Below are positions 9,072 through 51,696 of a stretch of 54,808 bases of DNA, piece after piece (the stretch's first letter is position 1; each line of letters begins with the position of its first letter). This DNA is from Planctomyces sp. (lineage in GTDB: Bacteria; Planctomycetota; Planctomycetia; Planctomycetales; Planctomycetaceae), in assembly GCA_005798445.1 (NCBI GenBank), contig SYJG01000233.1, positions 1 through 54,808 on the forward strand, given 5' to 3'. Position numbers and translations under genes: made by a program. Under the pieces are notes generated by a model, which worked only from the letters and a program-made list of their open reading frames with translations, did no database searches and had not been told where the DNA came from.

Positions 9072-9150
9072 CGTAGGATGGCCGCCCTCGGCCGTCCCGG
9101 ATCGACAACGACACACGAACCGCAGGACGGCCGAGGGCGGCCATCCTACG
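9072..9150. repeat. Perfect inverted repeat at a convergent junction
   Basis: Arms 9072-9097 and 9125-9150 are perfect 26-nt inverted copies (core GGATGGCCGCCCTCGGCCGT) with a 27-nt spacer. The element fills the gap between the stop of the permease (9069) and the stop of the convergent DUF1501 gene (9152). It could act as a two-way terminator, but there is no T tract on either side. Confidence 0.9.
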
Positions 9151-9151
9151 C

Positions 9152-10597
9152 TCACGACATGATCTCGCGGATCGGTTCGGCTCCTTCGACGCCGACCAGC
9201 TTCTGATCGAGGCCGCCGTAGAAATACGTCAGGCGATCGGGGTCGAGGCCGAGTTGGTGCAGCATCGTGGCGTGCAGATGTTTGACGTGGAATGGCTTCT
9301 CGACCGCCGCACTGCCGAGTTCATCCGTTGTGCCGACGGAGATTCCCCCTTTGACGCCTCCGCCAGCCGCCCACATTGTGAAGCCGTAGGCGTTGTGATC
9401 GCGGCCGGTTCCCTTTTCGTATTCGGCGGTCGGTTGGCGACCGAACTCGCCCCCCCAGACGATCAGCGTCGAATCGAGCAGCCCACGCGATTTGAGATCG
9501 GTCAGCAGCGCGGCGATCGGTTGATCGATCTCGCCGGCGTGCAGGTCGTGGTTGTGCTTGAGATCGCCGTGAGCGTCCCAGTTGTCGTCGTTATGTGCTC
9601 CGCCGGAGTAAATCTGCACAAAGCGAACGCCCCGTTCGACGAGCCGCCGCGCGAGCAAACACTGCCGAGCGACCGTGCCGCAGCGTCTGTCGTTGAGGCC
9701 GTACATCTCCTGGATGTGCTGCGGTTCCTGCGAGAAATCGACCGCCTCCGGCGCGGACGACTGCATCTTGAAGGCGAGTTCGTAGCTGGCAACGCGCGCC
9801 GCCAATTTGGAATCGTTGCCAAGCCGTGCGGCGTGGTCGTCGTTGAACTCGCGCAGCGTGTCGAGCAATCGCCTCTGGCCTGCTTCGCTCAGCTCGGCCG
9901 GGCGGGCGAGGTCGAGAATCGGCGTTCCCTGCGAGCGGAAGATCGTTCCCTCGTACTGCGCCGGCATATAGCCGCTGTTCCAATTCTTGGCTCCGCTGAT
10001 CGGTCCGCCGCGCGGGTCGAGCATCACGACGAAGCCGGGGAGATTTTCGTTCTCGCTGCCGAGGCCGTAGTTCACCCACGAGCCGATGCACGGCGAACCG
10101 CTCTGCACCTTGCCTGTGTTCATCTGCAACATCGCCGAGCCGTGAATCGGCGAGTCCGCCGTCATCGAGTGCAGGAACGCGATGTCATCGACATGCTTGG
10201 CGAGATTCGGAAACAACTCGCTGACCCAATGTCCGCACTGACCGTACTGCTGGAACTTCCAACGTGGCTCGACGATTCGCCCCTGATTCTTCTTGCCGCC
10301 GCGACCGAACGTTTTGACGGCGATCGTCTGGTTGTCGCGGCCGATCATCGACGGCTTGTAATCAAACGTGTCGATGTGGCTCGGCCCGCCGTACATGTAG
10401 AGGAAGATGACGCTCTTCGCTTTGGCGTCGAGGTGCGGCTTCTTCGGTGCGAGCGGATTCGCAAAGGCCGGCTTGCCGTCCGCCGCCTGAGCAAAGAACG
10501 GCTGGTCGAGCATCCCGGCCAGCGCGACACCGGTGAAACCGGCCCCGGTCTGCCAGAGGAACTCCCGGCGAGTGCGTCCACAAAAGTTTTGATTCAT
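9152..10597 (-). CDS. DUF1501 protein with Tat signal
   Basis: A 481-residue exported protein of the DUF1501 family, related in fold to the alkaline phosphatase/sulfatase superfamily. The N-terminus has a twin-arginine motif (RTRREFLWQTG) and a hydrophobic stretch ending near FFAQAA, so Tat export is likely. Family stretches are SVIFLYMYGGPSHIDTFDYK, IAFLHSMTADSPIHGSAMLQ, RRLVERGVRFVQIYSGGAHN, WDAHGDLKHNHDLHAGEIDQ and GGEFGRQPTAEY-x-GRDHN (metal-site-like His and Asp residues). DUF1501 genes in planctomycetes are usually coupled to a DUF1549/DUF1553 gene, as here. Biochemical function is not established. Start ATG 10597. Confidence 0.92.
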   Translation of the reverse strand: MNQNFCGRTRREFLWQTGAGFTGVALAGMLDQPFFAQAADGKPAFANPLAPKKPHLDAKAKSVIFLYMYGGPSHIDTFDYKPSMIGRDNQTIAVKTFGRGGKKNQGRIVEPRWKFQQYGQCGHWVSELFPNLAKHVDDIAFLHSMTADSPIHGSAMLQMNTGKVQSGSPCIGSWVNYGLGSENENLPGFVVMLDPRGGPISGAKNWNSGYMPAQYEGTIFRSQGTPILDLARPAELSEAGQRRLLDTLREFNDDHAARLGNDSKLAARVASYELAFKMQSSAPEAVDFSQEPQHIQEMYGLNDRRCGTVARQCLLARRLVERGVRFVQIYSGGAHNDDNWDAHGDLKHNHDLHAGEIDQPIAALLTDLKSRGLLDSTLIVWGGEFGRQPTAEYEKGTGRDHNAYGFTMWAAGGGVKGGISVGTTDELGSAAVEKPFHVKHLHATMLHQLGLDPDRLTYFYGGLDQKLVGVEGAEPIREIMS

Positions 10598-10611
10598 TTC
10601 TCTTCTCCGAC

Positions 10612-10674
10612 TCTGTGCCCTCTGTGTCTCTGTGGTGAAGTCTTTTTACCACAGAGACACAGAGGGCACAGAGA
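10612..10674. repeat. Perfect inverted repeat, CACAGAGACACAGAG type
   Basis: Arms 10612-10637 and 10649-10674 are perfect 26-nt inverted copies (core ACCACAGAGACACAGAGG) with an 11-nt loop containing TTTTT. It lies between the DUF1549/DUF1553 gene and the downstream DUF1501 gene and ends 3 nt before the upstream stop. Read on the minus strand, a strong hairpin here could attenuate expression of the second gene. The same word class is known as a dispersed repeat in several bacterial phyla (general knowledge). Confidence 0.9.
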
Positions 10675-10677
10675 GAT

Positions 10678-13176: not shown

Positions 13177-13286
13177 TCGGAGGTCTCGCAAGTTTCAGAT
13201 TCGTCGGCCGGGAATTTATCGCCCGCGCCCGTTTCAGGCATGTCCAAACGAGTGGAATCTGTGGTTGAGAGCAACTTGTGAATCGC

Positions 13287-13388: not shown

Positions 13389-13502
13389 ACTGCGCGAAGA
13401 CGACTTGGATTGGAGAAAAGCGTTGCTTCCCTTTCCACTTGCTCATTGAAGCCGTGTGCCGACGGTGGCAATCGTGGAGCGGTGGCTCCAGAATCGGACG
13501 GC

Positions 13503-16424
13503 ATGACGACGTCGATCACACGCGAGTTCTTGGGTTGGGAGCGGCCGCCGTTGGAGTCGGTGGAGAAGTGGCTCACGCGGAAGTTTGTGACGTGCGGTCA
13601 GCTTGATCTCGGCCGAGTGATCGCCGTTGTACCGGGACGCAGGGCAGGGCGGCGGCTGCTGGAGTTGCTGGTGTTGCGAGCGGAACAAGAAGGCGTCCGC
13701 CTCACGCCGCCGCAGATTGAGACGATCGGTGCGTTGCCGGAGCGGCTGTATCCGTTGCAGCGACCGCTGGCGAGCGACCTCGTGCAGCAACTCACATGGG
13801 CGAAGGTGCTTCGCGAATCGAAGCGAAGCGTGTTGTCGAAGATCATTCCGCGACCGCCGACGGACGACGATGCTCTGGCGTGGTGGTCGCTGGGAACGAT
13901 GCTCTGGAAGCAGCACCGCGAGCTGGCGGCGGACGGCCACGACTTCGCGAAGGTGGTCGAGCTTGGCCAGAAGAAACGAGACGGGTTCGAGACCGCTCGC
14001 TGGGAAGCGATGCGGCAGGTCCAAGAAAAATATCACCGGACGCTTGACGGCCTGGGCTTGTGGGACGCGCAGACCGCGCGGCTCGTCGCGATCGAGAAAC
14101 ACGAGCCGCACACCGACCGCGACCTCGTGCTCGTCGGGACGGTGGACATGAATCAGGCGACTCGGCAAATGCTCGAACAAGTGGCCGAGCGAGTCACCGC
14201 GCTCGTCGCCGCACCGCCGGAGCGGGCCGATTGGTTCGACGAGCACGGCTGCCTGATGCCGAACAAATGGTGCGAGACTCCGATCGACGTGCCGATGTAT
14301 CGCATCCGCGTCTGCGAAGGTCCGGCCGAACAGGCCGAGCAGGTCGCTCGCGAGCTGTCCGCCCTCGGCGAACGTTTCCGAGCGGACGAAGTTGTGATCG
14401 GCTTGACCGATGATCGGCTCGGCCCGTTCGTCGAGCGGGAGCTGGCAACGCGCGGTGTCCCGACCCGCTGGATCGAAGGGACGACGCTGGCAGATTCCGC
14501 TCCGAGCCGCTTGCTGCTCGCCGTGGCCGAGTCGTTGGAGCGTGATCGCTTCGAGGGCTTCGCGTCGCTCGTGCGGCATCCCGATCTCGATGAGTGTCTG
14601 ACGGGACGGCTCAATCTGGCCGCGCTCGACGCCTCGTTCTCCGAACACTTGCCGCTGGGACCGGAGACGCTGCAAGCGATCCTCGAACAGCCGAAGCCCG
14701 CGAGGTTGCGACCTCGACGAAAACTCGTGGGGCAGGTTTCCAACCTGCCAGACGACGATGGTTCGGAAGCGGGTGGTCTGCCTCACCGGTTGCTCCGCGA
14801 AGTGCGCGACTTGCTCGCCCCGTTGCGTGGCAAGCCGCGTCCGCTGAGCGATTGGTCCGAGCCGCTGCGAGCCTGGATCGAGTCGGTCTACGGCAACCGC
14901 GAAGCGGACGAATCGACGCTGTCCGGTCGAGTCGTCGTGAAAGTGTTGCAGCAGTTGGGGACCGCCTTGGAGGAACTGCACGCGATCCCGTTGTCGATCG
15001 CGCCGAGCGTCTCGGCCGCCGATGCGATTCGCTGCGTCGTCCGACGAGTCTCCGAAGGGACGGACAACACGGTCCCTCCCGAAGCGAACGACCACGCCGT
15101 CGAGCTGCTCGGCTGGTTGGAGCTGCCGCTCGACGACACGCCCGCCGCGATCGTAACGTCGTTCAACGAGGGCTTCGTCCCGACCAGCTTGAACTCCGAC
15201 TTGTTCCTGCCGAACGAGCTACGACATCGGCTCGGCCTGAACGACAATTTGCGGCGGTTTGCTCGCGACGCCTACGCCGTGACGCTGCTGCAACAGGCTC
15301 GCCGCGAAGTCGTCTGGCTGATCGGCCGCCGTGACGCCGACGGCAATCCGCTCATCCCCAGCCGCCTGCTGTTCGCTGCCGCTGCGGATGAGCTGCCGGA
15401 ACGCGTGTTGCGGCTGATGAATCGGGAGGGCGAGGCTCCCGCCGAGCCGGTGGTGATTGTTGGAGCCGATGCCCCATCGACGGCTCGGCGGGAGCCTCGC
15501 CCTCCCGGTGAATTTGATCTCGACATCCCTCATCCGCAACAGGTCGCCACACAACTCGGCCAGCCGGAATTGCTGCAACCGAAGCACGAGCTGACGCTGA
15601 GCGTCACGGCATTCAAGTCGTATCTGGCTTGTCCGTATCGCTACTTCTTACGTCACGAATTGGGGCTGGGAACGCTGAGCGATGACGCGGTCGAGCTGGA
15701 CGGTCTGGCGTTCGGCAACGTGTTGCACGATGTGCTGCGGCTCTTCGGCGAATCGGACACGCGAGACTCGGACGACGAGAACCACATCCGGCGTTGTCTG
15801 CTGGAACTGCTCAACGAGATCGCGCACGATCGCTTCGGCCCGCGTCGGCGAGCGGCGGTCAACGTGCAGCTCAAGCAGATGGAATCGCGGTTGGAATTCT
15901 TCGCGACTTGGCAGGCGAAGTGGCGGCGCGATGGTTGGAAGATCGAATACGTCGAACGCTCGATCCGTCCGGAACCGCACGACTCCGCCGCGTCGTTTCC
16001 AGTGGACGATGTCTCTGTTTGGTTGCACGGCCGGCTGGATCGGGTCGACCGCAACGAGTCGACCGGAGTCTGCGCGATCTTCGACTACAAGTCGGGTGAC
16101 CGAGGGGATTCTCCGGAAGAGAGTCATCGAAAGAAAGGAGCCTGGATTGACCTGCAACTGCCGTTGTATCGGCATTTGGCTCGGAGTCTCACGTTGTCGG
16201 ACGAGCCGCTCTTGGGCTACATCAACCTGCCGAAGGATTTGACGGGAGTCGGTCACTCGTTGGCCGAATGGTCGCCGAACGATTTGGCGGATGCGGATGA
16301 GCAGGCCAAGCAAGTCGTGCAGCGGATCGCACGTCGCGAGTTCTGGCCGCCGACGTCGCCCGCGCCGAGTCTGTTCCGCGACTTCGACGACATCTGCCAA
16401 GTGGGCGTTTTTGGTGCCGAATAA
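13503..16424 (+). CDS. AddB-like PD-(D/E)XK nuclease
   Basis: A 973-residue protein resembling the helicase-like/nuclease subunit AddB of double-strand-break repair complexes. The N-terminal part has degenerate UvrD-like motifs (IAVVPGRRAGRRLLELLV at about 38-55; PAAIVTSFNEGFVP). The C-terminal nuclease has LSVTAFKSYLACPYRYFLRH, a His in AFGNVLHDVLR, the catalytic Asp in GRLDRVDR, the D-Y-K of IFDYKSGD, and the QxxxY-like LQLPLY. The Fe-S cysteines of classical AddB are not visible: only one Cys precedes the nuclease core. The ATG at 13503 was chosen because the frame upstream runs through an inverted repeat. Two inverted-repeat elements lie in frame inside the gene, near residues 407-430 and 640-669. 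No AddA-type helicase gene is in the window. Confidence 0.85.
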   Translation: MTTSITREFLGWERPPLESVEKWLTRKFVTCGQLDLGRVIAVVPGRRAGRRLLELLVLRAEQEGVRLTPPQIETIGALPERLYPLQRPLASDLVQQLTWAKVLRESKRSVLSKIIPRPPTDDDALAWWSLGTMLWKQHRELAADGHDFAKVVELGQKKRDGFETARWEAMRQVQEKYHRTLDGLGLWDAQTARLVAIEKHEPHTDRDLVLVGTVDMNQATRQMLEQVAERVTALVAAPPERADWFDEHGCLMPNKWCETPIDVPMYRIRVCEGPAEQAEQVARELSALGERFRADEVVIGLTDDRLGPFVERELATRGVPTRWIEGTTLADSAPSRLLLAVAESLERDRFEGFASLVRHPDLDECLTGRLNLAALDASFSEHLPLGPETLQAILEQPKPARLRPRRKLVGQVSNLPDDDGSEAGGLPHRLLREVRDLLAPLRGKPRPLSDWSEPLRAWIESVYGNREADESTLSGRVVVKVLQQLGTALEELHAIPLSIAPSVSAADAIRCVVRRVSEGTDNTVPPEANDHAVELLGWLELPLDDTPAAIVTSFNEGFVPTSLNSDLFLPNELRHRLGLNDNLRRFARDAYAVTLLQQARREVVWLIGRRDADGNPLIPSRLLFAAAADELPERVLRLMNREGEAPAEPVVIVGADAPSTARREPRPPGEFDLDIPHPQQVATQLGQPELLQPKHELTLSVTAFKSYLACPYRYFLRHELGLGTLSDDAVELDGLAFGNVLHDVLRLFGESDTRDSDDENHIRRCLLELLNEIAHDRFGPRRRAAVNVQLKQMESRLEFFATWQAKWRRDGWKIEYVERSIRPEPHDSAASFPVDDVSVWLHGRLDRVDRNESTGVCAIFDYKSGDRGDSPEESHRKKGAWIDLQLPLYRHLARSLTLSDEPLLGYINLPKDLTGVGHSLAEWSPNDLADADEQAKQVVQRIARREFWPPTSPAPSLFRDFDDICQVGVFGAE
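14727..14786. repeat. Palindromic element inside the nuclease gene (GGCAGGTT type)
   Basis: A hairpin GGCAGGTT-TCC-AACCTGCC (14731-14749) is followed about 23 nt later by a weaker inverted match (GTCTGCCTCAC). It encodes LVGQVSNLPDDDGSEAGGLP, a low-information segment between two well-formed helices, and keeps the frame. Confidence 0.7.
15423..15507. repeat. Perfect inverted repeat inside the nuclease gene
   Basis: Arms 15423-15449 and 15481-15507 are perfect 27-nt inverted copies (core GGCGAGGCTCCCGCCGAGCC) with a 31-nt spacer. It encodes about 29 residues from REGEAPAEPVV to REPRPPG, placed between the helicase-like region and the nuclease domain, and keeps the reading frame. Confidence 0.92.
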
Positions 16425-16440
16425 AATGGAGTGACTCCGA

Positions 16441-19977: not shown

Positions 19978-19982
19978 TCGTA

Positions 19983-20068
19983 GGCGAGCGGTAGGGCGTC
20001 AGCCCTCCGAGTCAGACCCGCTTAAAACTCTCCGTAAACCTCGGAGGGCTGACGCCCTACCGCTCGCC
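19983..20068. repeat. Perfect inverted repeat, family A, convergent junction
   Basis: Arms 19983-20010 and 20041-20068 are perfect 28-nt inverted copies (core GCGGTAGGGCGTCAGCCCTC) with a 30-nt spacer. It fills the gap between the converging DUF1598 and ATP-grasp genes. The arm sequence is nearly identical to that at 41852-41927 and to the single arm at 45598-45627. Confidence 0.93.
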
Positions 20069-20072
20069 GAAT

Positions 20073-21011
20073 TCACGTCACTGCCTCGATCACAATTCGC
20101 GCGACATCCATCCCCGTCACTTTCTCGAGAGCTCGCCAGCCCGGGACCGCGTTGACTTCGATCACGAAGCCTTGACCGTCGTGATCGTACAAGATGTCGA
20201 TGCCTGTGAACCTCGCCCCGGTCGCCGAGGCCGCTCGCAAGGCCCATTCCGCTTCGAGGTCCGTGACGACGTGAGCCTCGCCCCGCCCGTCACGCGACAC
20301 GTTCGTCCGAAAGTCACCATCCGACACCCGTCGCATCCCGCCGAGCACTCGTCCATCCAGCACCAGCACCCGAATATCGAACCCGCGATGTGCCACGAAC
20401 CGCTGCAAGTACAGCACGGCATCAAGACGCCCCAACGTCCGGAACGTCCGCAGCGCGAGGTCCGGATCGCTGACTCGCAAAATACCGCGACCCTCCGACC
20501 CAAAGATCGGCTTCACGACGACGTCACCACCCAGCCGCTCAAACGCCACGAGCGCGTCGTCGGAGTTCTCGCACACGACCGTCGCTGGCACCGGCAGTCC
20601 CGCTTCTTCGAGCTTCGCCGTCGTCAAATACTTGTCGACCGCACACTCAACCGACTTCGGCGAATTGAGCACCGTCACCCCTCGCGCCTCCAACCGTGCG
20701 AGGACGTCCATCCGATAAACCACCTGCTCCAACGACCCCGGCGGCATCGTCCGAATGATGACCGCATCAAACGTCGCGAGGTCCATTTCTTGAACGAGGC
20801 TCGTTTCCGGTCCCCTCTCCCCCTGAGAGAGGGCTAGGGTGAGGGAACCATCCGTCGTTCGACTCTCGCCCTCGCCACTCAGCCGCATTCCGCAGCCCGC
20901 GACGATCCGAGGAAACTCCAGCCGCAGAACCTCGTGCCCCAGCTCGCCCCCGGCCCGCTGCAACTCGCGCACATACCAACTGTCCGAATTGCCGAGCACA
21001 CCGATCAGCAT
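20073..21011 (-). CDS. RimK-like ATP-grasp ligase, H4MPT-cluster type
   Basis: A 312-residue ATP-grasp enzyme of the RimK/MptN/CofF type, which adds glutamate to an acceptor carboxylate. The N-terminal domain is IGVLGNSDSWYVRELQRAGG. The ATP-grasp core includes DKYLTTAKLEEAGLPVPAT, GGDVVVKPIFGSEGRGI (ATP-binding Lys and Gly loop), YLQRFVAHRGFDIRVLVLDG, and the metal-binding GFVIEVNAVPGWRALE (E-x-N). It is followed upstream, 22 nt away on the same strand, by the Mch gene; such a pairing is known from methylotroph and planctomycete H4MPT clusters, so a role in making the methanopterin-like cofactor is likely. About 25 residues after ECGM-like IVAGCGMRL (GEGESRTTDGSLTLALSQGE) come from an in-frame repeat. 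Confidence 0.85.
   Translation of the reverse strand: MLIGVLGNSDSWYVRELQRAGGELGHEVLRLEFPRIVAGCGMRLSGEGESRTTDGSLTLALSQGERGPETSLVQEMDLATFDAVIIRTMPPGSLEQVVYRMDVLARLEARGVTVLNSPKSVECAVDKYLTTAKLEEAGLPVPATVVCENSDDALVAFERLGGDVVVKPIFGSEGRGILRVSDPDLALRTFRTLGRLDAVLYLQRFVAHRGFDIRVLVLDGRVLGGMRRVSDGDFRTNVSRDGRGEAHVVTDLEAEWALRAASATGARFTGIDILYDHDGQGFVIEVNAVPGWRALEKVTGMDVARIVIEAVT
20812..20846. repeat. CCCTCTCCCCCTGAGAGAGGG repeat in the ATP-grasp gene
   Basis: CCCTCTC and GAGAGGG form a short hairpin followed by CTAGGGTGAGGGA. On the coding strand it encodes SLTLALSQGERG, a peptide typical of a dispersed repeat seen in many bacteria. It sits in frame between the first two subdomains of the ATP-grasp protein. 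Confidence 0.75.
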
Positions 21012-21983: not shown

Positions 21984-22016
21984 GGCTGGCCTTTGGACTG
22001 CGGTGACCAACGTCAC

Positions 22017-22101
22017 CGCTTTTCAAAACGGATCATTTCAATATCGACACGCGCCGGGTTACGTTCATCGTGTTTTGAAAAGCGACGACTCAGGTCGTCG
22101 C
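22017..22101. repeat. Inverted repeat plus nested hairpin upstream of mch
   Basis: Arms CGCTTTTCAAAAC (22017-22029) and GTTTTGAAAAGCG (22072-22084) are perfect 13-nt inverted copies with a 42-nt spacer. A second perfect hairpin, GCGACGAC-TCAG-GTCGTCGC (22082-22101), overlaps the right arm. The whole fills the gap between the upstream exported-protein gene and the mch start. Confidence 0.85.
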
Positions 22102-22110
22102 ACTCCAAAG

Positions 22111-24184: not shown

Positions 24185-24302
24185 TCAGGCTCCTTGTCCC
24201 AGTGGACGAGTCCATTAAGTAGATCAAAAACCGACAGGGATTTTCGCCGCGACCGGCTCAAAGTGGCAAGGGAAAAATCAGAATCTGGCGTCTTCGCCCA
24301 AC

Positions 24303-24354
24303 GTAGCCGAGTCACTCCGTGACTCGAATTCCGGTCACGGAGTGACCGGGCTAC
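24303..24354. repeat. Inverted repeat, GAGTCACTCCGTGAC type, at a gene end
   Basis: Arms 24303-24323 and 24334-24354 match at 19 of 21 positions (GTAGCC-GAGTCACTCCGTGAC against its complement) with a 10-nt loop. The stop codon of the cytochrome-WD40 gene (24351-24353) lies inside the right arm, and the hairpin follows it directly on the minus strand, where it could act in termination. Its core is shared with the element at 51660-51696. Confidence 0.88.
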
Positions 24355-27221
24355 TTTGCCGCCGCCTGAGCGTTCGCTTCTGGCGGCTTGGGGGGATCGA
24401 ACTGGCGAATCAACTGGGCGTTCGTGCCGTTCCAGACGCGGAGAACCCCGTCTTCACCGGCCGCGACGACGACCTGTTCGTCGCGGCTCGCGGCGGCACA
24501 GTACATGAAGTCGGTCCCACCGGCGAAGGCTCGCGGCTGTGAGCCATTGGCGGCGTTATGGTAACGGACGGTCTTGTCGCCGCCGGAGCTGATCACGTTT
24601 TCGGTGACACCCAGGAAGCGGATCGACGTGACTTGTTTCGTGTAGCCGGGGATCGTGCGAGCCTGTTCGCCAGTCTCGACATTCCAGATCTTGATGGCGT
24701 TGTCCGCCCCAGCACTGGCGAGCAGGCTGTTGTCGGCCTTGATCGACACCCCCAAAACGTGATGCGTGTGTCCTTCAAACGACTTGACCAGCTTGCCGGA
24801 GCCGATGTCCCACAGCTTGACGAACTTGTCGGCGGCTCCGGTGACGAGGTACTTGCCGTCGCGGCCGAATTCGATGCTCATCACCGTATCGCTATGAGCG
24901 TCCTTAAACTCTTTGGACAGCGTTTGAGCGGCGACGTCCCAAATGAAGAGTTCGCCGCTGCGCGACGCTTCGCCACCGCCTGTCGCGAGCCATTTTCCAT
25001 CGCGGCTGAACGCGAGGCTCAGCACGCGTGCGGCGAACGGCGAACCAGCAAAATCGAGTGGAGTCTCCTTCTTCGGGCCGAGCTGCCCGATCAGCGACCA
25101 TGCGGGATTCGTCGTCCAAACCGCGGCCGTTTGATCGGCTGACCCGCTGACCACGAGACCGTTCGGCCCGGTCGCGAGTGCTCCAATCGGAGCCTTGTGG
25201 CCGGCGAAGGTTTCGATCGCCTTGCCAGTGGTGCTGTCCCAAACGTGAATCAGATTGTCGTCGGCCGCCGTCAACAGCCGCTTGCCATCAATGGAGAACG
25301 CGACGCTCTTCACCGGCTTCAATCCGGCGGCGTCCGCATCGGTTGCGGTCTTCAGATCGGCATCGGCCTTCGTGACTCCCGCGGTCATCGCATCTTGTGA
25401 AGTCTTTGCCGCAGCGACTTGCTCAACGGCCGATTTCGCGGCGGTTTCGGCCAGCGTGATCGCTCGCACGGCCGACGCGACGGTGTCCTGTCGCTTCTTC
25501 AATTCGTCCTGTTGTTTGGTGACTTCCGCAGCCGCATCGGTTGAGGCTTTCGCGAGTGCCGCATCGTCCTTCTTTTCGTCAGCCGCTTTCTTGGCGGCTT
25601 CCGCCTTCGTTACTGCTTCTTTGACTTTCGGGTCTTGCTCGGCCACCGCCTTGTCGGCGTTGGTCTTGGCTTCGTTCGCTTTCTTGACCGCTTCGTCCCG
25701 TTCCTTTTGGTTGGTTTCGGCCGCTTTGAACGCGGCTTCGGCGAGAGCCTTGAACTGCTGCGCGACTTTTTGGTCGTCCGTCCGCTCGACGACCGCGCGG
25801 TTGAGCGTCACGTCACCCTTGAGTTCCGCGACCTGTGCTCCGGTCTGATTGTTCCACAGCTTGGCGATGTTGTTGGGGCTGCCGGTCGCGGCGAACAAGC
25901 CGTCGGCTCGAATCGCGACCGAGTTGACCGGGCCGCCGTGAGCGAACTGTCGGATTTGCGTACCCGCTGCGAGATCCCAAACGCGCGCCGTTTGGTCGTC
26001 GCTGCCGGAAAGAACCTGCGTGCCGGCGGGGAGAACGAGAGCGAGCGCTGTGATCGGCCCGGTGTGCCCTTTGATTTCCTTCTCTGGTGTGAACGGAGCC
26101 ACTGCCGCAATTGGCCAGATGCGAATGATGTTGTCCGCTTGCCCGGCGATGACTTTGGCTCCATCGGCGGTGAACACGACCGCTTTCGCCGGGGCAGGGG
26201 ATTCGATCTTGTTGGCTTCTTTGCCCTCGGCGAGGTTCCAAATTCGGACGGTCTTGTCCTCGGAGGCGGACGCCAACTTCGCACCATCCGCGCTGAACGC
26301 GAGGCTGTGAATCGCTCCCGCATGACCCGCGAGCACTTTGCCGGCGGCTCCGTCGGCGAGGTTCCACAATTTGATGGCGTTATCGGCACCAGCCGTCGCG
26401 AGCGTCTGACCATTCGGGCTGACGGCCACCGCAGTCACAACCGCTCCGACGGCGATTTCGCGAGACCGATTCGTTGCCGGTCGCTGCCACAACTTGACCG
26501 TGCGATATCCCCCTGACGCGATCGTGCGTCCGTCCGGGCTGAAGGCGAGCGAGTGGACGAAGTCGCGGTGCGCGGCTCCGTTCGGATACATCGGCTTGCC
26601 GTTGTGCTGGATCGCGTTCAGATTCGGATCGATCAGCCGGCCGATTTCATCACCGGTTTCGACATCGAGCAGCAACACCTGATTGGCTCGGCCTGCCGCG
26701 ACATAGCGGCCCCACGGAGCAATCGCCACCGAGTAAATCGCCTTCGCGGTTGCCGGCACCGGCTGCCAATTGACTTGATCCTTCATGCCACCCATGCCAC
26801 CTGAGGCACCTTCGAGAATCCACTGCTTCAAGATTCCCAGTTCCTTCGGCGTGAGGGCCTTGGCATCCACCTTGTTCGGCAGCGGCGGCATCGCTGGGCC
26901 TTTGGCGCGCGCGGCGACTTGGAACAACAAACTCTTTTCCGGATCCTTCGGGACGATCGCCGCGCCGCGCTTACCCCCCTTGATGATCGCGTCGATCTTT
27001 TCGAGGTTCAGCTTGCTCTCCTGCTGGCCGAGGTTGTGGCAAGCGATGCAGTTGTTTTCGAGGATCGGCACGATGTCCTTGTCGAAATCGACCGGCCGGC
27101 CGAGATTGATCGCTTCGGGAGTGATCGCACCGGCGAGCGGTTTGGTGGCATCTTGAGCCAGCAACGATGAGGAGCCGAAGATCGTCAAACCACAAAACAA
27201 CGCAAGTGAGGTGGGACGCAT
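24351..27221 (-). CDS. Cytochrome c/WD40 protein with coiled-coil insert
   Basis: A 956-residue exported protein. Signal peptide about 1-22 (ending LLAQDA). A planctomycete cytochrome domain (about 45-140) carries CIACH (C58, C61, H62) and PAMPPLPNKVDAKALTPKEL. WD40 repeats fill about 155-470 (GGYRTVKLWQ, AGADNAIKLWNLADG, SEDKTVRIWNLAEGK, GSDDQTARVWDLAAG). Residues about 475-635 form an Ala/Lys/Glu/Asp-rich coiled coil (KALAEAAFKAAETNQKERDE). More WD40 repeats follow (ADDNLIHVWDSTTGK, GAADKFVKLWDIGSG, AGADNAIKIWNVETG) to about 935. The propeller blades are therefore split by a helical rod. A scaffold role in the periplasm next to the PPC-domain and DUF1549 proteins is inference. Start ATG 27221. 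Confidence 0.92.
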   Translation of the reverse strand: MRPTSLALFCGLTIFGSSSLLAQDATKPLAGAITPEAINLGRPVDFDKDIVPILENNCIACHNLGQQESKLNLEKIDAIIKGGKRGAAIVPKDPEKSLLFQVAARAKGPAMPPLPNKVDAKALTPKELGILKQWILEGASGGMGGMKDQVNWQPVPATAKAIYSVAIAPWGRYVAAGRANQVLLLDVETGDEIGRLIDPNLNAIQHNGKPMYPNGAAHRDFVHSLAFSPDGRTIASGGYRTVKLWQRPATNRSREIAVGAVVTAVAVSPNGQTLATAGADNAIKLWNLADGAAGKVLAGHAGAIHSLAFSADGAKLASASEDKTVRIWNLAEGKEANKIESPAPAKAVVFTADGAKVIAGQADNIIRIWPIAAVAPFTPEKEIKGHTGPITALALVLPAGTQVLSGSDDQTARVWDLAAGTQIRQFAHGGPVNSVAIRADGLFAATGSPNNIAKLWNNQTGAQVAELKGDVTLNRAVVERTDDQKVAQQFKALAEAAFKAAETNQKERDEAVKKANEAKTNADKAVAEQDPKVKEAVTKAEAAKKAADEKKDDAALAKASTDAAAEVTKQQDELKKRQDTVASAVRAITLAETAAKSAVEQVAAAKTSQDAMTAGVTKADADLKTATDADAAGLKPVKSVAFSIDGKRLLTAADDNLIHVWDSTTGKAIETFAGHKAPIGALATGPNGLVVSGSADQTAAVWTTNPAWSLIGQLGPKKETPLDFAGSPFAARVLSLAFSRDGKWLATGGGEASRSGELFIWDVAAQTLSKEFKDAHSDTVMSIEFGRDGKYLVTGAADKFVKLWDIGSGKLVKSFEGHTHHVLGVSIKADNSLLASAGADNAIKIWNVETGEQARTIPGYTKQVTSIRFLGVTENVISSGGDKTVRYHNAANGSQPRAFAGGTDFMYCAAASRDEQVVVAAGEDGVLRVWNGTNAQLIRQFDPPKPPEANAQAAAK

Positions 27222-36394: not shown

Positions 36395-37621
36395 ATGACG
36401 ACAACACCGCCCAATTCGATTGACGACGCGCTGGCGGCTCTGCGAGCGGGACGGCTGGTGATTGTGATCGATGCGTCGGATCGCGAGAACGAGGGGGACT
36501 TCGTCGGCGCGGCCGAATCGATCACGGCCGAGCAAGTCGACTTCATGCTGACTCGCGGTCGCGGCGTGATGTGTGCTCCATTGACGCGCGACGTGGCCGA
36601 TCGACTGCGGTTGTCGCCGCTGGTCGCGGCCGAATCGAATTCATCGCCGAATCACACGCCGTTTTTGACGCCAGTCGATCATCGCGACTCCGGCACGGGC
36701 GTCAGTGCGGACAGCCGTGCGAAAACGTTGCGGGCCTTGGTCGATGGGAATTCGACCGCCAGCGATTTCGTCCGGCCGGGACATCTCAATCCACTGCTGG
36801 CCAAAGAGGGGGGCGTGCTTCGCCGAGCGGGGCACACCGAGGCGACCGTCGATTTGCTTCGCATCGCGGGGCTTCAGCCGGTTGGCGTGCTGATCGAGAT
36901 TCTCAGCCAAAAACACGCCGGCATGGCTGACCGCGCTGAGTTGGATGAGATCGCTGCTCAGAGCAACATCCCGATCATCACCATCGAAGATTTGATTCGT
37001 CATCGCCGCTTGCGCGAACGCCTTGTCACACGCGAGGTCGAGGTCTCGATGCCGCTGCGCGAGTACGGCCAGGTCACTGTCATTGCCTACAAGGTTGAGC
37101 ACGAAGATCAAGCACCACTCGCGCTGGTCTGGGGCGACCTGAAATCGGTCAAGGCTCCGCTGGTACGAATGCACTCCAGTTGCTTCACAGGCGACGTGCT
37201 CGACAGCTTGCGTTGCGATTGCGGCGATCAACTCCGTCTTGCGATGGACATGATCTCGCGAGACGGAATTGGAGCCGTCGTCTACTTGCCGCAAGAGGGA
37301 CGCGGCATCGGTTTAGTCGCGAAGCTCAAGGCGTATCAGCTTCAGGACCAAGGCATGGACACCGTCGAGGCGAATCACAAGCTCGGCTTCAAGGCTGATC
37401 AGCGCGATTACATGATCGGCCTGCAAATCCTGAAAGACCTCGGCCTGAGCCAGATTCGCATCTTGACCAACAACCCGAAGAAGCTCGAATCGTTCGAGCA
37501 CACCTGGGATCTGCACGTCGTCGAACAAGTCCCGATCATCGCGCCGCCTCACGAGCACCGGCAGAAATACATGGAGACGAAACGCGACAAGATGGGCCAC
37601 AAGCTGCCGCCGACAGACTGA
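36395..37621 (+). CDS. ribBA: Bifunctional DHBP synthase/GTP cyclohydrolase II
   Basis: A 408-residue riboflavin-pathway enzyme. The N-terminal half (about 1-200) makes 3,4-dihydroxy-2-butanone 4-phosphate from ribulose 5-phosphate: DASDRENEGDFVGAAE binds metal and substrate, and RAGHTEATVDLLRIAGL carries the His. The C-terminal half (about 205-400) opens GTP: VRMHSSCFTGDVLDSLRCDC with three zinc-ligand cysteines, YLPQEGRGIGLVAKLKAYQL, and TNNPKKLESFE. In the first half the usual T-P-F-T-V-S-V-D loop is TPFLTPVDHRDSGTGVSADS, a mild variation. Its stop (TGA) lies in the left end of an inverted repeat shared with the next, convergent gene. Confidence 0.95.
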   Translation: MTTTPPNSIDDALAALRAGRLVIVIDASDRENEGDFVGAAESITAEQVDFMLTRGRGVMCAPLTRDVADRLRLSPLVAAESNSSPNHTPFLTPVDHRDSGTGVSADSRAKTLRALVDGNSTASDFVRPGHLNPLLAKEGGVLRRAGHTEATVDLLRIAGLQPVGVLIEILSQKHAGMADRAELDEIAAQSNIPIITIEDLIRHRRLRERLVTREVEVSMPLREYGQVTVIAYKVEHEDQAPLALVWGDLKSVKAPLVRMHSSCFTGDVLDSLRCDCGDQLRLAMDMISRDGIGAVVYLPQEGRGIGLVAKLKAYQLQDQGMDTVEANHKLGFKADQRDYMIGLQILKDLGLSQIRILTNNPKKLESFEHTWDLHVVEQVPIIAPPHEHRQKYMETKRDKMGHKLPPTD

Positions 37622-37680
37622 GCGGCACGGCGTTAGCCGCCGGTGTATTCTGACGACCGGCGGCTAGCGCCGTACCGCTC
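37620..37680. repeat. Inverted repeat joining two convergent stop codons
   Basis: Arms 37620-37644 and 37656-37680 match at 23 of 25 positions (core CGTTAGCCGCCGGT and its complement) with an 11-nt loop. The left end overlaps the ribBA stop, the right end overlaps the stop of the convergent glycosyltransferase gene. It can serve as a terminator for both. Confidence 0.9.
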
Positions 37681-39493
37681 AGCGTCGGATCGCCATTCTC
37701 CAGCGACGCACATCTTCATCAGTCAGGTGATACACGTCGATTGACGCTCCGATGCGGTGTTTCGGCTCAAAGAACCAGAAGTACGAGAAGTCCTCGCCCG
37801 GATAAACTGAGCGAATGCCGCCGTGTCCGTCACGAGTCCAATGCGGCCGTCCCATCACGAAGTTCGCGCTCACCGCGTGCCAACCCGGGCGGGGAATGTT
37901 CGTCGGTGGTCTCTCGTAGCGCAGGCCGAGCGACTCCGGTGGCAGCGTGCCGAAATACGCAAGGCTTAGTGGTTCGACTTCGGAATGCTCGGCGAGGAAC
38001 CGCTTCAGCTCATGCAGGTCTTGGCCCCAATCGAGGTTTGAATCGAGCAGGTGAAAACGGCCCCCCTTAGTTCCGCCAGCCAACTCGTTGAAATACGCCA
38101 AGTATTCAGGATGCGATCGCCACGGATCGAAAAGCAACAGAAAGGCACCCGCCACGAGTGGTTGCCAACGAGTCTGCGGCCACGACCACTTCGCCGTGAT
38201 CTCGCTGGCGAATAGCAGCAGCAACGGAATCGCCGGCAGCACATAGCGAATGCCCAATTGCATTGGCGAGGAACTCGCAACGTAGAGCATCAGGAGAGCA
38301 GGAACGACGCTCCACATCCGCCGCCTCCAACAGCCGGCCGGCCGCGTTCGCACCGTCCCGACCACGGCCCACAGCATCAACATGTGGATCGAATGCGGCC
38401 ACTTGTAAAGCAGCGTCATCAAGTAGTAATTCCAGAATCCGTGGGTATCGACCAGTTCGCCATCCAGAAAGACCGGATGCTTCGAATCCATGATGGAAAC
38501 TTGCCAGTCGAATCCTTGGACGTAATCGCGCGGCAACGGGAGCGGCAGCGCGGCCAGCGAACCGAGGTTGGCTTGCCAGTCTATTGCCTGCCGGCTCGCA
38601 AACTGGAAATCCCGAATGGCTGTGCCCGTTCCGCGAAACAAGTACGCCGCGTTGAGACACAGCCACGCGGCGAGCAGCAGCGTTCCCCAACGTCGCAACA
38701 ACCTCTGCCACGTCTGCGATTCAACCGCCGCGTTGCGCCAGCGTTCAACAAACCACAAGCCGACGACCAGCGGCATGAGCAACACGTTCGTGAACTTCGC
38801 TGCTTGAGCCAGCCCCAAGAGCACTCCCGCAAGGACAGAATTCCAAGTGGTCGGTCGCTGAGCGAATCGCCAAGTCGCAAAGAGTGTCGCGATCCAAAAT
38901 GCAGCACCACCAGCATCCGTGGTCACGAGTGATCCGTGCGCAAGTACCGTTGGCTCGCGCGACCACAGCCACGCCACAAGACACGCGGCCCACGGTCCAT
39001 GCCATTCCCACGCCCAGCGAGCGAGCAACGCTCCCGCCGCGACCGTCAGCAACACGATCGGCAGCCGAGCGATCACGACGAATCGGTCGATGTTCGAGTG
39101 ATTCGCTGCCAGGAATTCGTCACCGATGCGAGTCAGGTCGCTCGTCGGTTCCGTGCGCGGTGATTCGGCCGACGTGAAGAGTAGCGGCCATGTCGCCCAC
39201 ATTCGCAACAGCGGTGGGTTGAGCGGCTCGACGTCGAAGCGGCCGGTTTTCCAATTCAGCAGGCCAACCGGGATGTGCCAGTATTCATCATGCGTGATCG
39301 TCAGCCGAACGGCCGTTAGCGTCATCACGACCGTTTGTCCGGCGAGCATCACAGCGATCGCGATGAATGCCCAAAGATTCGCGCGAGGCCGCCCAATACT
39401 AGCCCGACGCGCCAGCGAGGGATCGTCGGACACACGACCCTTCGACCCCTCGCTGGCGCTTCGGGCTAGTGTTTCGGGAGGACGGCCAGACAT
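37679..39493 (-). CDS. Glycosyltransferase family 39-like membrane protein
   Basis: A 604-residue integral membrane protein of the GT-C/PMT type, expected to move a sugar from a lipid carrier to an acceptor outside the membrane. After the first helix (LWAFIAIAVMLAGQTVVMTL) the outer loop carries THDEYWHIPVGLLNWKTGRF and PLNPPLLRMWATWPLLF, the pattern of this fold's acidic active site. About nine to ten helices follow, and a soluble C-terminal part includes SNLDWGQDLHELKRFLAEHS and LAYFGTLPPESLGLRYE. The first 40 residues (ETLARSASEGSKGRVSDDPS) are coded by an inverted repeat, so the N-terminus before the first helix is element-derived; an internal start after it is possible but no ATG with a good site is evident. 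Confidence 0.82.
   Translation of the reverse strand: MSGRPPETLARSASEGSKGRVSDDPSLARRASIGRPRANLWAFIAIAVMLAGQTVVMTLTAVRLTITHDEYWHIPVGLLNWKTGRFDVEPLNPPLLRMWATWPLLFTSAESPRTEPTSDLTRIGDEFLAANHSNIDRFVVIARLPIVLLTVAAGALLARWAWEWHGPWAACLVAWLWSREPTVLAHGSLVTTDAGGAAFWIATLFATWRFAQRPTTWNSVLAGVLLGLAQAAKFTNVLLMPLVVGLWFVERWRNAAVESQTWQRLLRRWGTLLLAAWLCLNAAYLFRGTGTAIRDFQFASRQAIDWQANLGSLAALPLPLPRDYVQGFDWQVSIMDSKHPVFLDGELVDTHGFWNYYLMTLLYKWPHSIHMLMLWAVVGTVRTRPAGCWRRRMWSVVPALLMLYVASSSPMQLGIRYVLPAIPLLLLFASEITAKWSWPQTRWQPLVAGAFLLLFDPWRSHPEYLAYFNELAGGTKGGRFHLLDSNLDWGQDLHELKRFLAEHSEVEPLSLAYFGTLPPESLGLRYERPPTNIPRPGWHAVSANFVMGRPHWTRDGHGGIRSVYPGEDFSYFWFFEPKHRIGASIDVYHLTDEDVRRWRMAIRR
39398..39470. repeat. Inverted repeat in the glycosyltransferase N-terminus, family C
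   Basis: Arms 39398-39421 and about 39447-39470 match at 23 of 24 positions (core CCCGACGCGCCAGCGAGGG) with a 25-nt spacer. It encodes LARSASEGSKGRVSDDPSLA, in frame, directly before the first membrane helix. The arm resembles the weaker copy at 42064-42146. Confidence 0.9.
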
Positions 39494-41851: not shown

Positions 41852-41927
41852 GGCGAGCGGTAGGGCGTCAGCCCTCCGAGTGATTCCATCTGCTTCGCCT
41901 CGGAGGGCTGACGCCCTGCCGCTCGCC
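41852..41927. repeat. Inverted repeat, family A, complete copy
   Basis: Arms 41852-41880 and 41899-41927 match at 28 of 29 positions (core GGTAGGGCGTCAGCCCTC) with an 18-nt loop. Arms are nearly the same as those at 19983-20068. The loop and right side (CCGAGTGATTCCATCTGCTT to CATGACTCCCCGCGCGA) are repeated at 45573-45649. It lies 53 nt after the S1/P1 nuclease stop. In the 428-nt gap 41800-42227 the only other structure seen is the repeat at 42064-42146. Confidence 0.93.
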
Positions 41928-42063
41928 GAATTTCTCATGACTCCCCGCGCGAAGTATCGTTGCCCCCCACGAATCATGTGGGCTAGCGCGTTTCGGTGGA
42001 TTTGCTGAACCAGAAATTCAAGGTATGACACAGCACTAGTTTTTGAAGCTGTGCAACTTGTCC

Positions 42064-45568: not shown

Positions 45569-45572
45569 CAAG

Positions 45573-45649
45573 CCGAGTGATTCCATCTGCTTTGACTCGG
45601 AGGGCTGACGCCCTGCCGCTCGCCGAATCTCTCATGACTCCCCGCGCGA
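45573..45649. repeat. Family A element, truncated copy at a convergent junction
   Basis: About 77 nt that match 41876-41954 at roughly 95%: the loop (CCGAGTGATTCCATCTGCTT), the right arm (CTCGGAGGGCTGACGCCCTG) and the flank CATGACTCCCCGCGCGA. The left arm is missing. It fills the gap between the ABC ATPase and convergent larE and continues into larE, giving its last residues and stop. Confidence 0.9.
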
Positions 45650-46495
45650 GGTTGACATCGGAGCCGTCAACCGAACATCCAGCGGCACCAGTGCGTTGAG
45701 GTTGCCCGAACGGAAGCCTTCCAGGTCGAGCGTCACGCAGCGGAAGCCGAGCGAACGGAACTCGCGGGAGATGCGTTCAAAGGTCGTCGCGTTCAACAGC
45801 GGTGTGACTTCACCGAGCGCGACCTCGATGCGTGCGAGGTCGTTGGCTTCGCAGCGGACTCGGAATTCACGGAGGTTGAATTCGCGACGCAGGAACGACT
45901 CGGCCGCGTCGATGCGGCGGACTCGTTCGGGGGTGACGGCGACTCCGTAGGCGATGCGGCTCGAAAGGCACGGCATTGCGGGCTTGTCCCAGCAGGGCAA
46001 TGACCACAGCTTGGCGAGGTCGCGCACGTCGGACTTCGTGAGGCCAGCCTCGATGAGCGGGCTGCGGACGGAGTGCTCTTTCGCGGCCGTCATGCCGGGG
46101 CGGTAGTCGCCGACGTCATCCAGATTCGCGCCGTTGCAAATCACGTCCGCTTCCAGTTCGCTCAATCGGGATTCGAGCCGCGAGTACAGCTCGGTCTTGC
46201 AGAAGTAGCAGCGGTTCGCCGGGTTCGCGAGGTAGCTTTCGTTGGCGAATTCCTCGGTCTTGAGCACAACGTGGCGAATCCCGATCAACGCGGCCACTTC
46301 CTGAGCTTGCTCCAACTCGCCGGACGCCAAACTGAGGCTGACTGCCGTGACCGCGACCGCTCTGCCCCCGCAAGCCTCGTGCGCCGCGCGAGCCACGACC
46401 GCACTGTCCACACCGCCGGAAAACGCGACAGCGACTCGACCGTAATCAATCAGCCGAGCCAGCAACTCATCACGTTTAGCCAATAGTTCGGACAT
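45632..46495 (-). CDS. larE: ATP-dependent sacrificial sulfur transferase LarE
   Basis: A 287-residue PP-loop enzyme that transfers sulfur from its own Cys to the pyridinium cofactor precursor of the nickel-pincer nucleotide used by lactate racemase and relatives. The PP-loop is VAFSGGVDSAVVAR (about 23-36). Cys176 in KPAMPCLSSRIAYG is at the position of the sacrificial Cys known in this family, and a Cys pair appears in NRCYFCKTELY. Length is normal (about 270-290). LarB, LarC and LarA are not in the window. The final residues (TSRGES) and stop come from the repeat element at the gene end. ATG 46495; divergent from the gene at 46.6 kb. Confidence 0.95.
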   Translation of the reverse strand: MSELLAKRDELLARLIDYGRVAVAFSGGVDSAVVARAAHEACGGRAVAVTAVSLSLASGELEQAQEVAALIGIRHVVLKTEEFANESYLANPANRCYFCKTELYSRLESRLSELEADVICNGANLDDVGDYRPGMTAAKEHSVRSPLIEAGLTKSDVRDLAKLWSLPCWDKPAMPCLSSRIAYGVAVTPERVRRIDAAESFLRREFNLREFRVRCEANDLARIEVALGEVTPLLNATTFERISREFRSLGFRCVTLDLEGFRSGNLNALVPLDVRLTAPMSTSRGES

Positions 46496-48548: not shown

Positions 48549-48561
48549 TGGCGAGCGGTAA

Positions 48562-48601
48562 GGTGCGAGGGGCGAGTGATCGGCCTCGCCCCTCGCACCT
48601 G
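48562..48601. repeat. Perfect inverted repeat AGGTGCGAGGGGCGAG
   Basis: Arms 48562-48577 and 48586-48601 are perfect 16-nt inverted copies with an 8-nt loop. It begins 14 nt after the cytochrome gene stop and ends 19 nt before the ThiO start, and is preceded by GGCGAGCGGTA, the outer end of a family A arm. A terminator or attenuator effect between the two genes is possible. Confidence 0.9.
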
Positions 48602-48619
48602 GTCCCTAACCCCTCTTCC

Positions 48620-49714: not shown

Positions 49715-49809
49715 CGAGCACTCGGCCAGGACTCGGCTATTCGCCATCGGCTTTCTTTTCCTACTCTCCCCGTGACCAGCAAGTGGATGGAACCTTGGGA
49801 GGACTGGCG

Positions 49810-51666
49810 ATGGATCGCCGAATGCTTGTGGCAATCGCTCTCGCTGTGGGGCTGTGTGCGTGGGGCCAGCAGCGCGGATGGTTCTCGACGGTGGCCACGA
49901 CACCCGACGGAGCGTTGAATGCCGCGAGTCCGTCGATCACGGAGCCGACGGATCGACAACCGCGAGCGACCGTCTACCTGTTTCTTTCGGTGAATTGCCC
50001 GATCAGCAACGGCTCGCTGCCGATGCTGAATCGGTTGTGTGAGCAGTTCACCTCCAAGGGCATTGAGTTCGTCGGCGTCGTCCCCGGAGCCAATGCGACG
50101 GCGGACGAAGTGGACGCTCATCATCAGGAGTATGCAATTCGGTTCCCGGTGGTCTGGGATCGGCAGCACAAACTTTGCGAACGGCTCGGTGCCACGCACA
50201 CGCCACAAGCGGTCGTCGTCGGAGTCAACGACGAAGTCCTCTATTCCGGGCGGCTCGATAACCGGAATGTCGATCTCGGAAAACGCCGAGCGAAAACTCG
50301 CGATGATCTGCGGCGAGCACTCAACGACATCGTCGTTGGGCGAGAAGTGCAAGTCTCTCGAACGCTGCCTGTCGGTTGCGTGATTGAGTCGCCTAATGTT
50401 GCCGACTCGCAGCAGGTGACTTATTGCCGCGATGTCGCACCGATCTTGTTTGAGCAATGCGCGAGCTGCCATCGCCCTGGCGAGGTCGCTCCGTTTTCGC
50501 TGCTGACCTACGAAGATGCTCGCTCGCACGCGAAACAGATTCGGCTGGTCACGCAACGCCGATTGATGCCACCGTGGAAACCGGAGTCTGGCTTCGGTCA
50601 TTTTCAAAATGAACGACGACTGTCTGAGCCGGAGATCGCGACAATCGATGCTTGGGTTGCCGATGGAGCACCGCGTGGCGATCGACGCGAACTGCCGCCG
50701 CGACCGGAATTCGTGTCGGGCTGGCATCTCGGCGAGCCCGATTTAGTGCTCGTCATGCCCGAATCGTTTGAAGTCTCCGCCGATGGGCCGGACGTCTACC
50801 AGCACTTCGTCATCCCGACTGGCCTGACACAAAACCGACTCGTCCGCGCGGTCGAGTTTCGTCCTGGTGCGCCGCAGGTCGTGCATCATGCGCTGGCCTT
50901 CTACGACACCACCGGGCAAGGCCGACAACTGGATGAAGCCGACCCGGCTCCCGGATACAGCAGCATCGGCACGCCGGGTTTCGCGACATCCGGTGGGCTT
51001 GTCGGTTGGGGACCGGGAGGATTGCCGCGCGAACTTCCGCCGGGAATGGGACGGCCAATCGAAAAGAACTCGGACATCATCTTGCAGATCCACTACCACC
51101 CGTGCGGCAAAGTGGTTCGCGATCGGTCGCGACTCGGTTTGTATTTCGCGCCGCCGTCAGCAACGTGGGTCGTGACTGAAGGGATGGTCGCCAACGTCGA
51201 TCTGAAGATTCCCGCCGGAGCCACACGACATCGGCACCGCGCGTCGCTGACGGTCCCCGTCGAGACGATGCTGCTCGATGTCACGCCGCACATGCATGTC
51301 CTCGGAAAAGAGATTCGAGCGACCGCGTACCCACCGGACGACGACCCGATCCCGTTGATCTGGATCAAGGACTGGGATTTCTATTGGCAAGCTCATTACG
51401 TCTACGCCAAACCGATCACGCTGCCGGCCGGGACACGCATCGAACTCGACTGCTGGTTCGACAACTCCGAACAGAATCCGCTGAACCCGAACAGCCCACC
51501 ACAGACGGTTTCTTGGGGCGACTTCTCGACCGACGAGATGGCCATCTGCTACTTCCAAATGACCACGCGAGAGTGGGACGACTTCCTCAAACTGACCAAG
51601 TCGAACCAGACCTACTTCGACGAGCAATGGCAACAAGCTCAGCGACGAAAGCGGAATCAAAAGTAG
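49810..51666 (+). CDS. Thioredoxin-fold/cytochrome/copper monooxygenase fusion
   Basis: A 618-residue protein from ATG 49810, supported by GGGAGGA seven bases upstream. One N-terminal helix or signal (MLVAIALAVGLCAWG). Domain 1 (about 45-185) is a redoxin fold: VYLFLSVNCPISNGSLPMLN with C63 and a Ser at the second redox position. Domain 2 (about 200-300) has a cytochrome site, FEQCASCHRPGEVAPFSLL (C217, C220, H221), and LMPPWKP. Domain 3 (about 305-600) resembles PHM-type ascorbate-dependent copper monooxygenases: VVHHALAF (H359, H360), QIHYHPCG (H428, H430), and PHMHVLGKE (H494, H496). These are candidate copper ligands; the Met ligand cannot be assigned by eye. It is probably periplasmic and membrane-tethered. 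The substrate is unknown. Similar fusions occur in planctomycetes and acidobacteria (recalled knowledge). Confidence 0.85.
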   Translation: MDRRMLVAIALAVGLCAWGQQRGWFSTVATTPDGALNAASPSITEPTDRQPRATVYLFLSVNCPISNGSLPMLNRLCEQFTSKGIEFVGVVPGANATADEVDAHHQEYAIRFPVVWDRQHKLCERLGATHTPQAVVVGVNDEVLYSGRLDNRNVDLGKRRAKTRDDLRRALNDIVVGREVQVSRTLPVGCVIESPNVADSQQVTYCRDVAPILFEQCASCHRPGEVAPFSLLTYEDARSHAKQIRLVTQRRLMPPWKPESGFGHFQNERRLSEPEIATIDAWVADGAPRGDRRELPPRPEFVSGWHLGEPDLVLVMPESFEVSADGPDVYQHFVIPTGLTQNRLVRAVEFRPGAPQVVHHALAFYDTTGQGRQLDEADPAPGYSSIGTPGFATSGGLVGWGPGGLPRELPPGMGRPIEKNSDIILQIHYHPCGKVVRDRSRLGLYFAPPSATWVVTEGMVANVDLKIPAGATRHRHRASLTVPVETMLLDVTPHMHVLGKEIRATAYPPDDDPIPLIWIKDWDFYWQAHYVYAKPITLPAGTRIELDCWFDNSEQNPLNPNSPPQTVSWGDFSTDEMAICYFQMTTREWDDFLKLTKSNQTYFDEQWQQAQRRKRNQK

Positions 51667-51696
51667 ACGAGTCACGGAGTGACTTCGTCTACTTTG
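51660..51696. repeat. Palindrome overlapping two convergent stop codons
   Basis: AAAGTAGACGA-GTCAC and GTGAC-TTCGTCTACTTT form a near-perfect stem with a 3-nt loop. Both the plus-strand stop (TAG, 51664-51666) and the minus-strand stop (51672-51674) lie inside it; the last residues of the minus gene (KVDEVTP) are coded by it. Its core GAGTCACGGAGTGAC is shared with 24303-24354. A-rich and T-rich ends make a bidirectional terminator plausible. Confidence 0.9.

Follow-up and report, generated by a model that had tools for sequence, protein, structure and literature searches.

Hairpin repeats at gene ends of a Planctomyces contig as probable REP/REPIN-type mobile elements of many families

Why do long inverted repeats stand where two neighboring genes end face to face? 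The question is raised by contig SYJG01000233.1 of the Planctomyces sp. assembly GCA_005798445.1. Positions 1 to 54,808 of this contig were analyzed, and this whole stretch of 54,808 nucleotides (nt) is called the window here. The palindromes of the window and of the genome appear to be miniature mobile elements of the REP (repetitive extragenic palindromic) or REPIN (REP doublet forming a hairpin) type. They belong to many families. We give this reading a probability of about 0.7. The elements are insertions. Transcription termination by the hairpins is possible.

Convergent junctions of the window

The original prediction, made from the letters of the window, counted seven convergent junctions, five of them with a long palindrome or a copy of one. 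Six such junctions lie between called genes, and all six (6/6) carry a sequence of this kind. The seventh, 54385/54404, needs an uncalled open reading frame of 86 amino acids. The palindromes at 9072-9150, 19983-20068, 37618-37682, and 51660-51695 are confirmed.

The element at 9072-9150 is a GTAG-type REPIN, an inverted doublet that fills the convergent gap 9070-9151. Its arms are paired at 26/26 positions, and its pattern has 9 half-sites in the genome sample (described below) and window. The element at 19983-20068 is a family A1 REPIN with the foot GGCGAG. It fills the convergent gap 19978-20072, and its arms are paired at 29/29 positions. The element at 37618-37682 is a family A4 REPIN that starts with TGAGCGG. 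It lies in the convergent gap 37622-37678 with 25/27 arm positions paired, and its two arms run over the TGA codons at which the neighboring genes stop. The short GTAG-type hairpin at 51660-51695 has a stem of 16 bp, in which a single base is bulged, and a loop of 3 nt. Its TAG at 51664-51666 is the stop codon of the gene at 49783-51666, and pattern G matches 51663-51686.

The segment at 45573-45652 is a partial A1 copy. It consists of the spacer and right half of an A1 element (45596-45624) together with flanking DNA. It is 95% identical to 41876-41955 across 80 bp, flanking DNA included, which bears out the truncated copy noted earlier at 45573-45649. The segment may have been copied from 41876-41955, or the two may have a common origin. 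It supplies the 3' end of the gene at 45632-46495, the last residues of which align in few congeners. The left neighbor gene of this junction was found in none of 10 congener loci.

The junction at 643/691 had been said to lack an element. It contains a REP singlet on the plus strand at 648-678, within the convergent gap 644-690. This singlet has a GTAG foot and belongs to the GTAGGGTG...GACCCACC family, of which the sample and window together contain 19 half-sites (0 with the reversed pattern).

Families and doublets

A genome sample was built from the first 20 kb of 120 contigs (1,457,440 bases, or 1.46 Mb). Because it was built from contig starts, elements at contig ends are over-represented in it. 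Genes were called with a codon-usage script written for the analysis. A long inverted repeat was defined by arms of at least 16 nt, at least 86% paired, with a loop of at most 60 nt.

The 341 repeats found (327 in the sample and 14 in the window) cluster into 97 groups, 61 of which have a single member. The earlier view that the junctions share a shape and a place rather than a sequence is partly right. The families are numerous, but most repeats are not one-off shapes: 280 of the 341 fall in groups of at least two. Two of the five junctions noted (19983 and 45573) share one family, A1. This family has 240 half-sites in the genome at up to 3 mismatches; the reversed control has 0. Across 11 congeners, 0 to 24 A1 half-sites were found at 2 mismatches.

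Doublets were inverted in 74/74 cases in families A1, B, and R, the three tested. One A2 place consists of two successive inverted doublets. Singlets had diverged further than doublets in A1 (p=0.0001), as they had in B (p=0.0008); the difference in R was not significant (p=0.14). The patterns of subfamilies A2 and A3 overlap, as do those of B0, B1, and B2, so their counts are not independent. The foot is GTAG at 648, 9072, 24299, 34910, and 51660, GGCGAG in A1, and TGAG in A4. The A1 elements (19983, 41852, and 45573) and the A4 element (37618) were not filed as GTAG REPs because they do not have this foot. A GTYA-like loop is common to some families by eye only, and the fold program draws A4 differently. 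No Rfam family matched in the window at the gathering thresholds.

Empty and refilled junctions

The junction at 37618 is 11 to 13 nt long and holds no element in 5/5 congeners with the same gene pair. The junction at 19983 was compared in seven congeners. It is 7 nt long and empty in G005 and G011, and three congeners have unrelated palindromes there. In G007 the gap is 19 nt with a small GTAG hairpin seen by eye, and in G003 it is 92 nt with only a repeat of 11-nt arms. The C-termini at 19983 and 37618 remain aligned, and truncation of gene ends was therefore rejected as the source of the short residual gaps. The tandem gap at 21984-22110 contains family B in four congeners and a GTAG-type element in G007; it is an empty 17 nt in G011.

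Proteins encoded in the window include DUF1501, DUF1598, and FGE-sulfatase, which are planctomycete markers and agree with a source among uncultured planctomycetes. The end of the DUF1501 gene, at 9072, has palindromes in 7/10 other genomes within the stretch examined. They are of about five kinds. One of them (L216) lies far from the stop codon, and the same convergent neighbor is kept in 1/10 genomes. A survey of the RimK-like gene end examined 30/31 loci. Among 24 further loci of distant relatives, A4-like units were found in L264 and L274 and a GTAG unit in L265, counted as three additional kinds at this gene end. A same-strand gene follows the RimK-like gene in L264 and L265, so neither is convergent. 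The empty congener sites, together with the palindromes of unrelated sequence that occupy one gene end in different genomes, show that insertion was repeated.

Gap lengths in the sample agree with insertion. The median gap minus its element was 80 nt in convergent gaps (83 nt in element-free gaps), 95 nt in tandem gaps (96 nt), and 257 nt in divergent gaps (304 nt). Insertion at gene ends, one of two causes first suggested, thus stands on the empty sites and the residual lengths. The preference for convergent gaps is real, though modest, as the counts below indicate.

Candidate transposases

The genome has eight Y1 transposase genes. GTAG doublets lie on both sides of L005 and L007 and on one side of L004 and L006. 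The arms flanking L007 have 26 and 16 matches in the sample and window, with their own copies counted. The 9072 element resembles the L007 family and may belong to it. NCBIfam model NF047646 is the best or only strong model for L004 to L007, and it fits better than the IS200 model. Two non-GTAG Y1 genes, L008:1260-2129 and L002:1261-2169, also lie between palindromes (GGGTGGCACGCCCTGAG and GTGCCCTGAAGGGGCAC) with few or no other copies in the sample. No class 3 TnpA_Y1 gene was recognized among the eight Y1 genes, which were judged without a class 3 profile.

Frequency by gap type

Long inverted repeats were held by 49 of 150 convergent gaps in the sample (33%), 117 of 599 tandem gaps (20%), and 35 of 142 divergent gaps (25%). 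These counts leave out 32/327 sample repeats that lie outside both gaps and genes and 28 repeats with loops of 61 to 90 nt. The prediction that most convergent junctions carry such elements therefore holds in the window and fails in the genome. The 5/6 of the window stands out locally (33% expected, binomial p=0.016; p=0.042 for 5/7), and the window was picked because of it. Long stems had been expected to be more frequent at convergent gaps than at others. This was found against tandem gaps (p=0.0009) and not clearly against divergent gaps (p=0.15).

Repeat density per kb was 1.87 in convergent gaps, 1.07 in tandem gaps, 0.70 in divergent gaps, and 0.07 within called genes. By absolute number, more elements sit in tandem gaps than in convergent ones. 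When any match to a repeat arm was counted, singlets included and three low-complexity clusters dropped, 64/150 convergent (43%), 156/599 tandem (26%), and 50/142 divergent (35%) gaps were occupied; the reversed control gave 0 in each. Convergent gaps ranked highest at all three settings of the gene caller, with gaps of more than 800 nt excluded (p=0.002 to 0.026 against tandem; p=0.09 to 0.16 against divergent). Uncalled genes may hide in long gaps. Pooled congener stretches of 147 kb gave 3/11 convergent, 14/74 tandem, and 2/8 divergent gaps, numbers too small to test. Among congener gaps with both neighbors matched, a repeat was held by 4/13 convergent, 14/64 tandem, and 1/7 divergent gaps.

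Occupancy was also sorted by residual gap length. Convergent gaps were filled in 12/26 cases at 0 to 15 nt, 9/15 at 15 to 30 nt, and 4/13 above 500 nt. The same classes gave 11/52, 15/43, and 5/37 for tandem gaps. Divergent gaps were filled in 0/5 cases below 60 nt, 4/13 at 60 to 120 nt, and 6/29 above 500 nt.

Explanations for the placement

The explanation that we favor is as follows. The unit is an imperfect hairpin behind a fixed foot (GTAG, TAG/TAA-CCCGA, GGCGAG, or TGAG). It mostly forms an inverted doublet of ~60 to 100 bp, and tens of such families coexist in this planctomycete genome. Probable movers of the GTAG families are the RAYT-like (REP-associated tyrosine transposase) Y1 transposases of the same genome. 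Copies land between genes, with the highest rate per gap at convergent pairs, presumably in the main because promoters and ribosome-binding sites are spared there; tolerance is the presumed main cause. The stop codons of both genes survive, or the TAG or TGA of the element replaces them. Fast turnover of copies leaves different families at one gene end in different species. An additional effect may act at each junction.

Several observations weigh against this explanation. Divergent gaps, which have no 3' ends, are filled nearly as often as convergent gaps. Occupancy shows no rise with free gap length. Short convergent gaps are fuller than long ones (21/41 and 28/98; p=0.019), and tolerance alone predicts the reverse. 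Perfect arms are more common in convergent gaps (19/52) than in tandem and divergent gaps together (33/156; p=0.04). The A1 foot differs from GTAG. No transposase was found beside families A or B at the eight Y1 genes here or at 8/16 Y1 loci of G007, and a partner beside family A was rejected on these grounds. L004 to L007 score 57.5 to 67.9 bits, under the NF047646 cut-off of 80, and are therefore labeled RAYT-like only. The source genome is a 7.96-Mb draft in 553 contigs with 5.34% contamination, and the window is one contig of it.

Uniform insertion per free base was rejected, as the median free length of filled convergent gaps was 65 nt with 445 nt expected. Insertion spread evenly over free DNA, with harmful copies lost afterwards, predicts that occupancy rises with gap length; no such rise is seen, and uniform insertion is insufficient. 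An additive model with a fixed chance per 3' end, worked by hand, fails on divergent gaps. The flat occupancy, together with the distances to stop codons and the excess of TAG described below, indicates that some factor works at the level of the junction. The simplest component of the placement is tolerance, to which a second one has to be joined. A benefit at the junction and an insertion preference are both candidates.

A benefit could lie in transcription. Hairpins between tight convergent genes may have been kept for ending or shielding both transcripts, and selection for two-way termination was the other cause first suggested. Short convergent gaps are indeed filled in excess (21/41, against 26/95 short tandem gaps; p=0.010), one gene end has been refilled with unrelated hairpins, and the perfect arms noted above fit as well. 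TTTT was found within 8 nt at 22 of 416 stem flanks (5.3%), which is three times the rate in control intergenic DNA (1.7%). However, the other 394 flanks lack it, and most stems do not have the U-tract of an intrinsic terminator. Longer empty convergent gaps (at least 60 nt) are still structured, with z<-2 at 29% of 122 ends and at 15% of 329 tandem ends. In empty short convergent gaps, by contrast, only 10% of 80 ends were strongly structured, next to 15% of tandem ends and 6% of mid-gene positions. Taken together, empty convergent ends do not differ from tandem ends (p=0.18). Arm pairing points both ways, as mean arm mismatch is alike across gap types (p=0.30). The same families occur in divergent gaps and in genes. 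The missing TTTT and the weak structure of empty short gaps do not bear the suggestion out, and we regard selected termination or insulation as somewhat unlikely. An insertion preference would mean that the transposase, or its single-stranded target, favors gene ends or stop codons, for example through a foot containing TAG or TGA. Occupancy scales per junction and not per base, and the GTAG is reported to take part in choosing the cleavage site (PMC8266576). TGAG or a similar sequence is already present at the empty 37618 site in most congeners. Elements in long tandem gaps lean toward the stop codon (16/54 within 30 nt; 7.5 expected), but those in long convergent gaps do not (2/16; 4.5 expected), and targeting of stop codons as the sole cause was set aside for this reason. 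TAG is over-represented among stop codons inside elements (20/38, against 223/963 overall), although it may come from the element itself and need not be the target. Divergent gaps, which have no stop codons, are still filled in 35/142 cases. Targeted insertion appears unlikely to us.

Convergent gene ends could form a standing niche that is filled by whichever palindromic family is active in the lineage, with a rate that depends on the junction, whatever its length. Either the insertion would be useful because it parts colliding transcripts, or Y1 transposases would gain access to DNA that colliding transcription leaves single-stranded. From one species to the next, unrelated hairpins would then take over the same junction. 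We consider the niche a doubtful, tentative alternative. Chance palindromes or an assembly artefact have a negligible probability. The assembly is a draft, and among the first 100 listed sites of the A families at least 20 fall no more than 80 nt from the start of a contig (e.g., C8, C10, C17, and C34). This crowding probably arises because the repeats break the assembly. Controls refute the artefact: five dinucleotide shuffles of the window had a mean of 0 such repeats with 12 observed, reversed patterns gave 0, and like elements are present in congeners.

Relation to described repeats

The kind of element and its placement are already published. The families themselves are new, as is the side-by-side view of orthologous junctions that are filled, empty, or differently filled.

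REPINs with RAYT transposases are described in PMC3116915, with inverted REP doublets as the unit and doublets random over extragenic space. The present elements are like them in their inverted doublets, more-diverged singlets, many copies, and GTAG copies beside Y1 genes. They are unlike them in that the GTAG foot is missing from families A and B, beside which no transposase was found, and in that occupancy does not follow gap length. REPs tagged with GTAG or CGTC are described in PMC3733652, with Planctomycetes among the hosts. They lie mostly in unidirectional and convergent gaps near 3' ends, some are intragenic, and a TAG stop codon is often provided by their GTAG ends. Roles in termination or mRNA stability are named there as hypotheses. 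Placement, TAG supply, and the presence of some copies in genes are shared by our elements; A1, A2, and A3 (GGCGAG) and A4 (TGAG) have neither tag. A further difference is that orthologous junctions are compared here as filled, empty, or differently filled.

Intergenic stem-loops of 40 bacteria concentrate in convergent gaps near 3' ends, according to PMC1590033. Any stable stem-loop was counted there, whereas the stems considered here are sorted into families of mobile repeats. Class 3 TnpA_Y1 genes occur chiefly in Planctomycetes, Acidobacteria, and Proteobacteria, and are flanked by hairpins with a CnGA foot that sometimes reach high copy number (PMC6006769). By eye, CnGA fits the CTGA of A4 at 37618 and not the GCGA of A1. 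No paper devoted to planctomycete REPINs was found among the matches listed in the openly licensed literature.

The empty and filled sites of this genus form a natural experiment on whether REPINs are merely tolerated at gene ends or recruited there. They also call for caution in annotation. Gene-end hairpins of planctomycetes are often mobile repeats, and shape alone is insufficient to call a terminator.

Elements elsewhere in the window and within genes

Five further elements lie in tandem or divergent gaps of the window. A family A1 REPIN is at 41852-41927 (tandem), and a family B REPIN is at 39398-39470 (tandem), where congener G011 also has family B. The GTAG-type REPIN at 34910-35001 belongs to family D and lies in a divergent gap. 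The GTAG-type element at 24299-24358 is in a tandem gap and is missing in seven congeners. The CTCTGTGCCC... palindrome at 10611-10673, also in a tandem gap, is missing in G006.

Within called genes, 87 of the 327 sample repeats were found. The A2 pattern is coding at 24/45 places and the A3 pattern at 10/10; the two patterns overlap. In-frame palindromes in long genes are also present at sample loci L047:794-880, L085:6404-6506, and L135:1719-1802. In the window, a family F palindrome at 15423-15507 lies in frame within the gene at 13503-16424. It encodes REGEAPAEP..., and residues are present at the same place in four congeners (REGEAPAE is kept in three and altered in one). The RimK-like protein encoded at 20073-21011 has a variable stretch, which reads GSLTLALSQGERG in the alignment consensus. 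This stretch resembles one more insert of repeat origin within a protein that is conserved.

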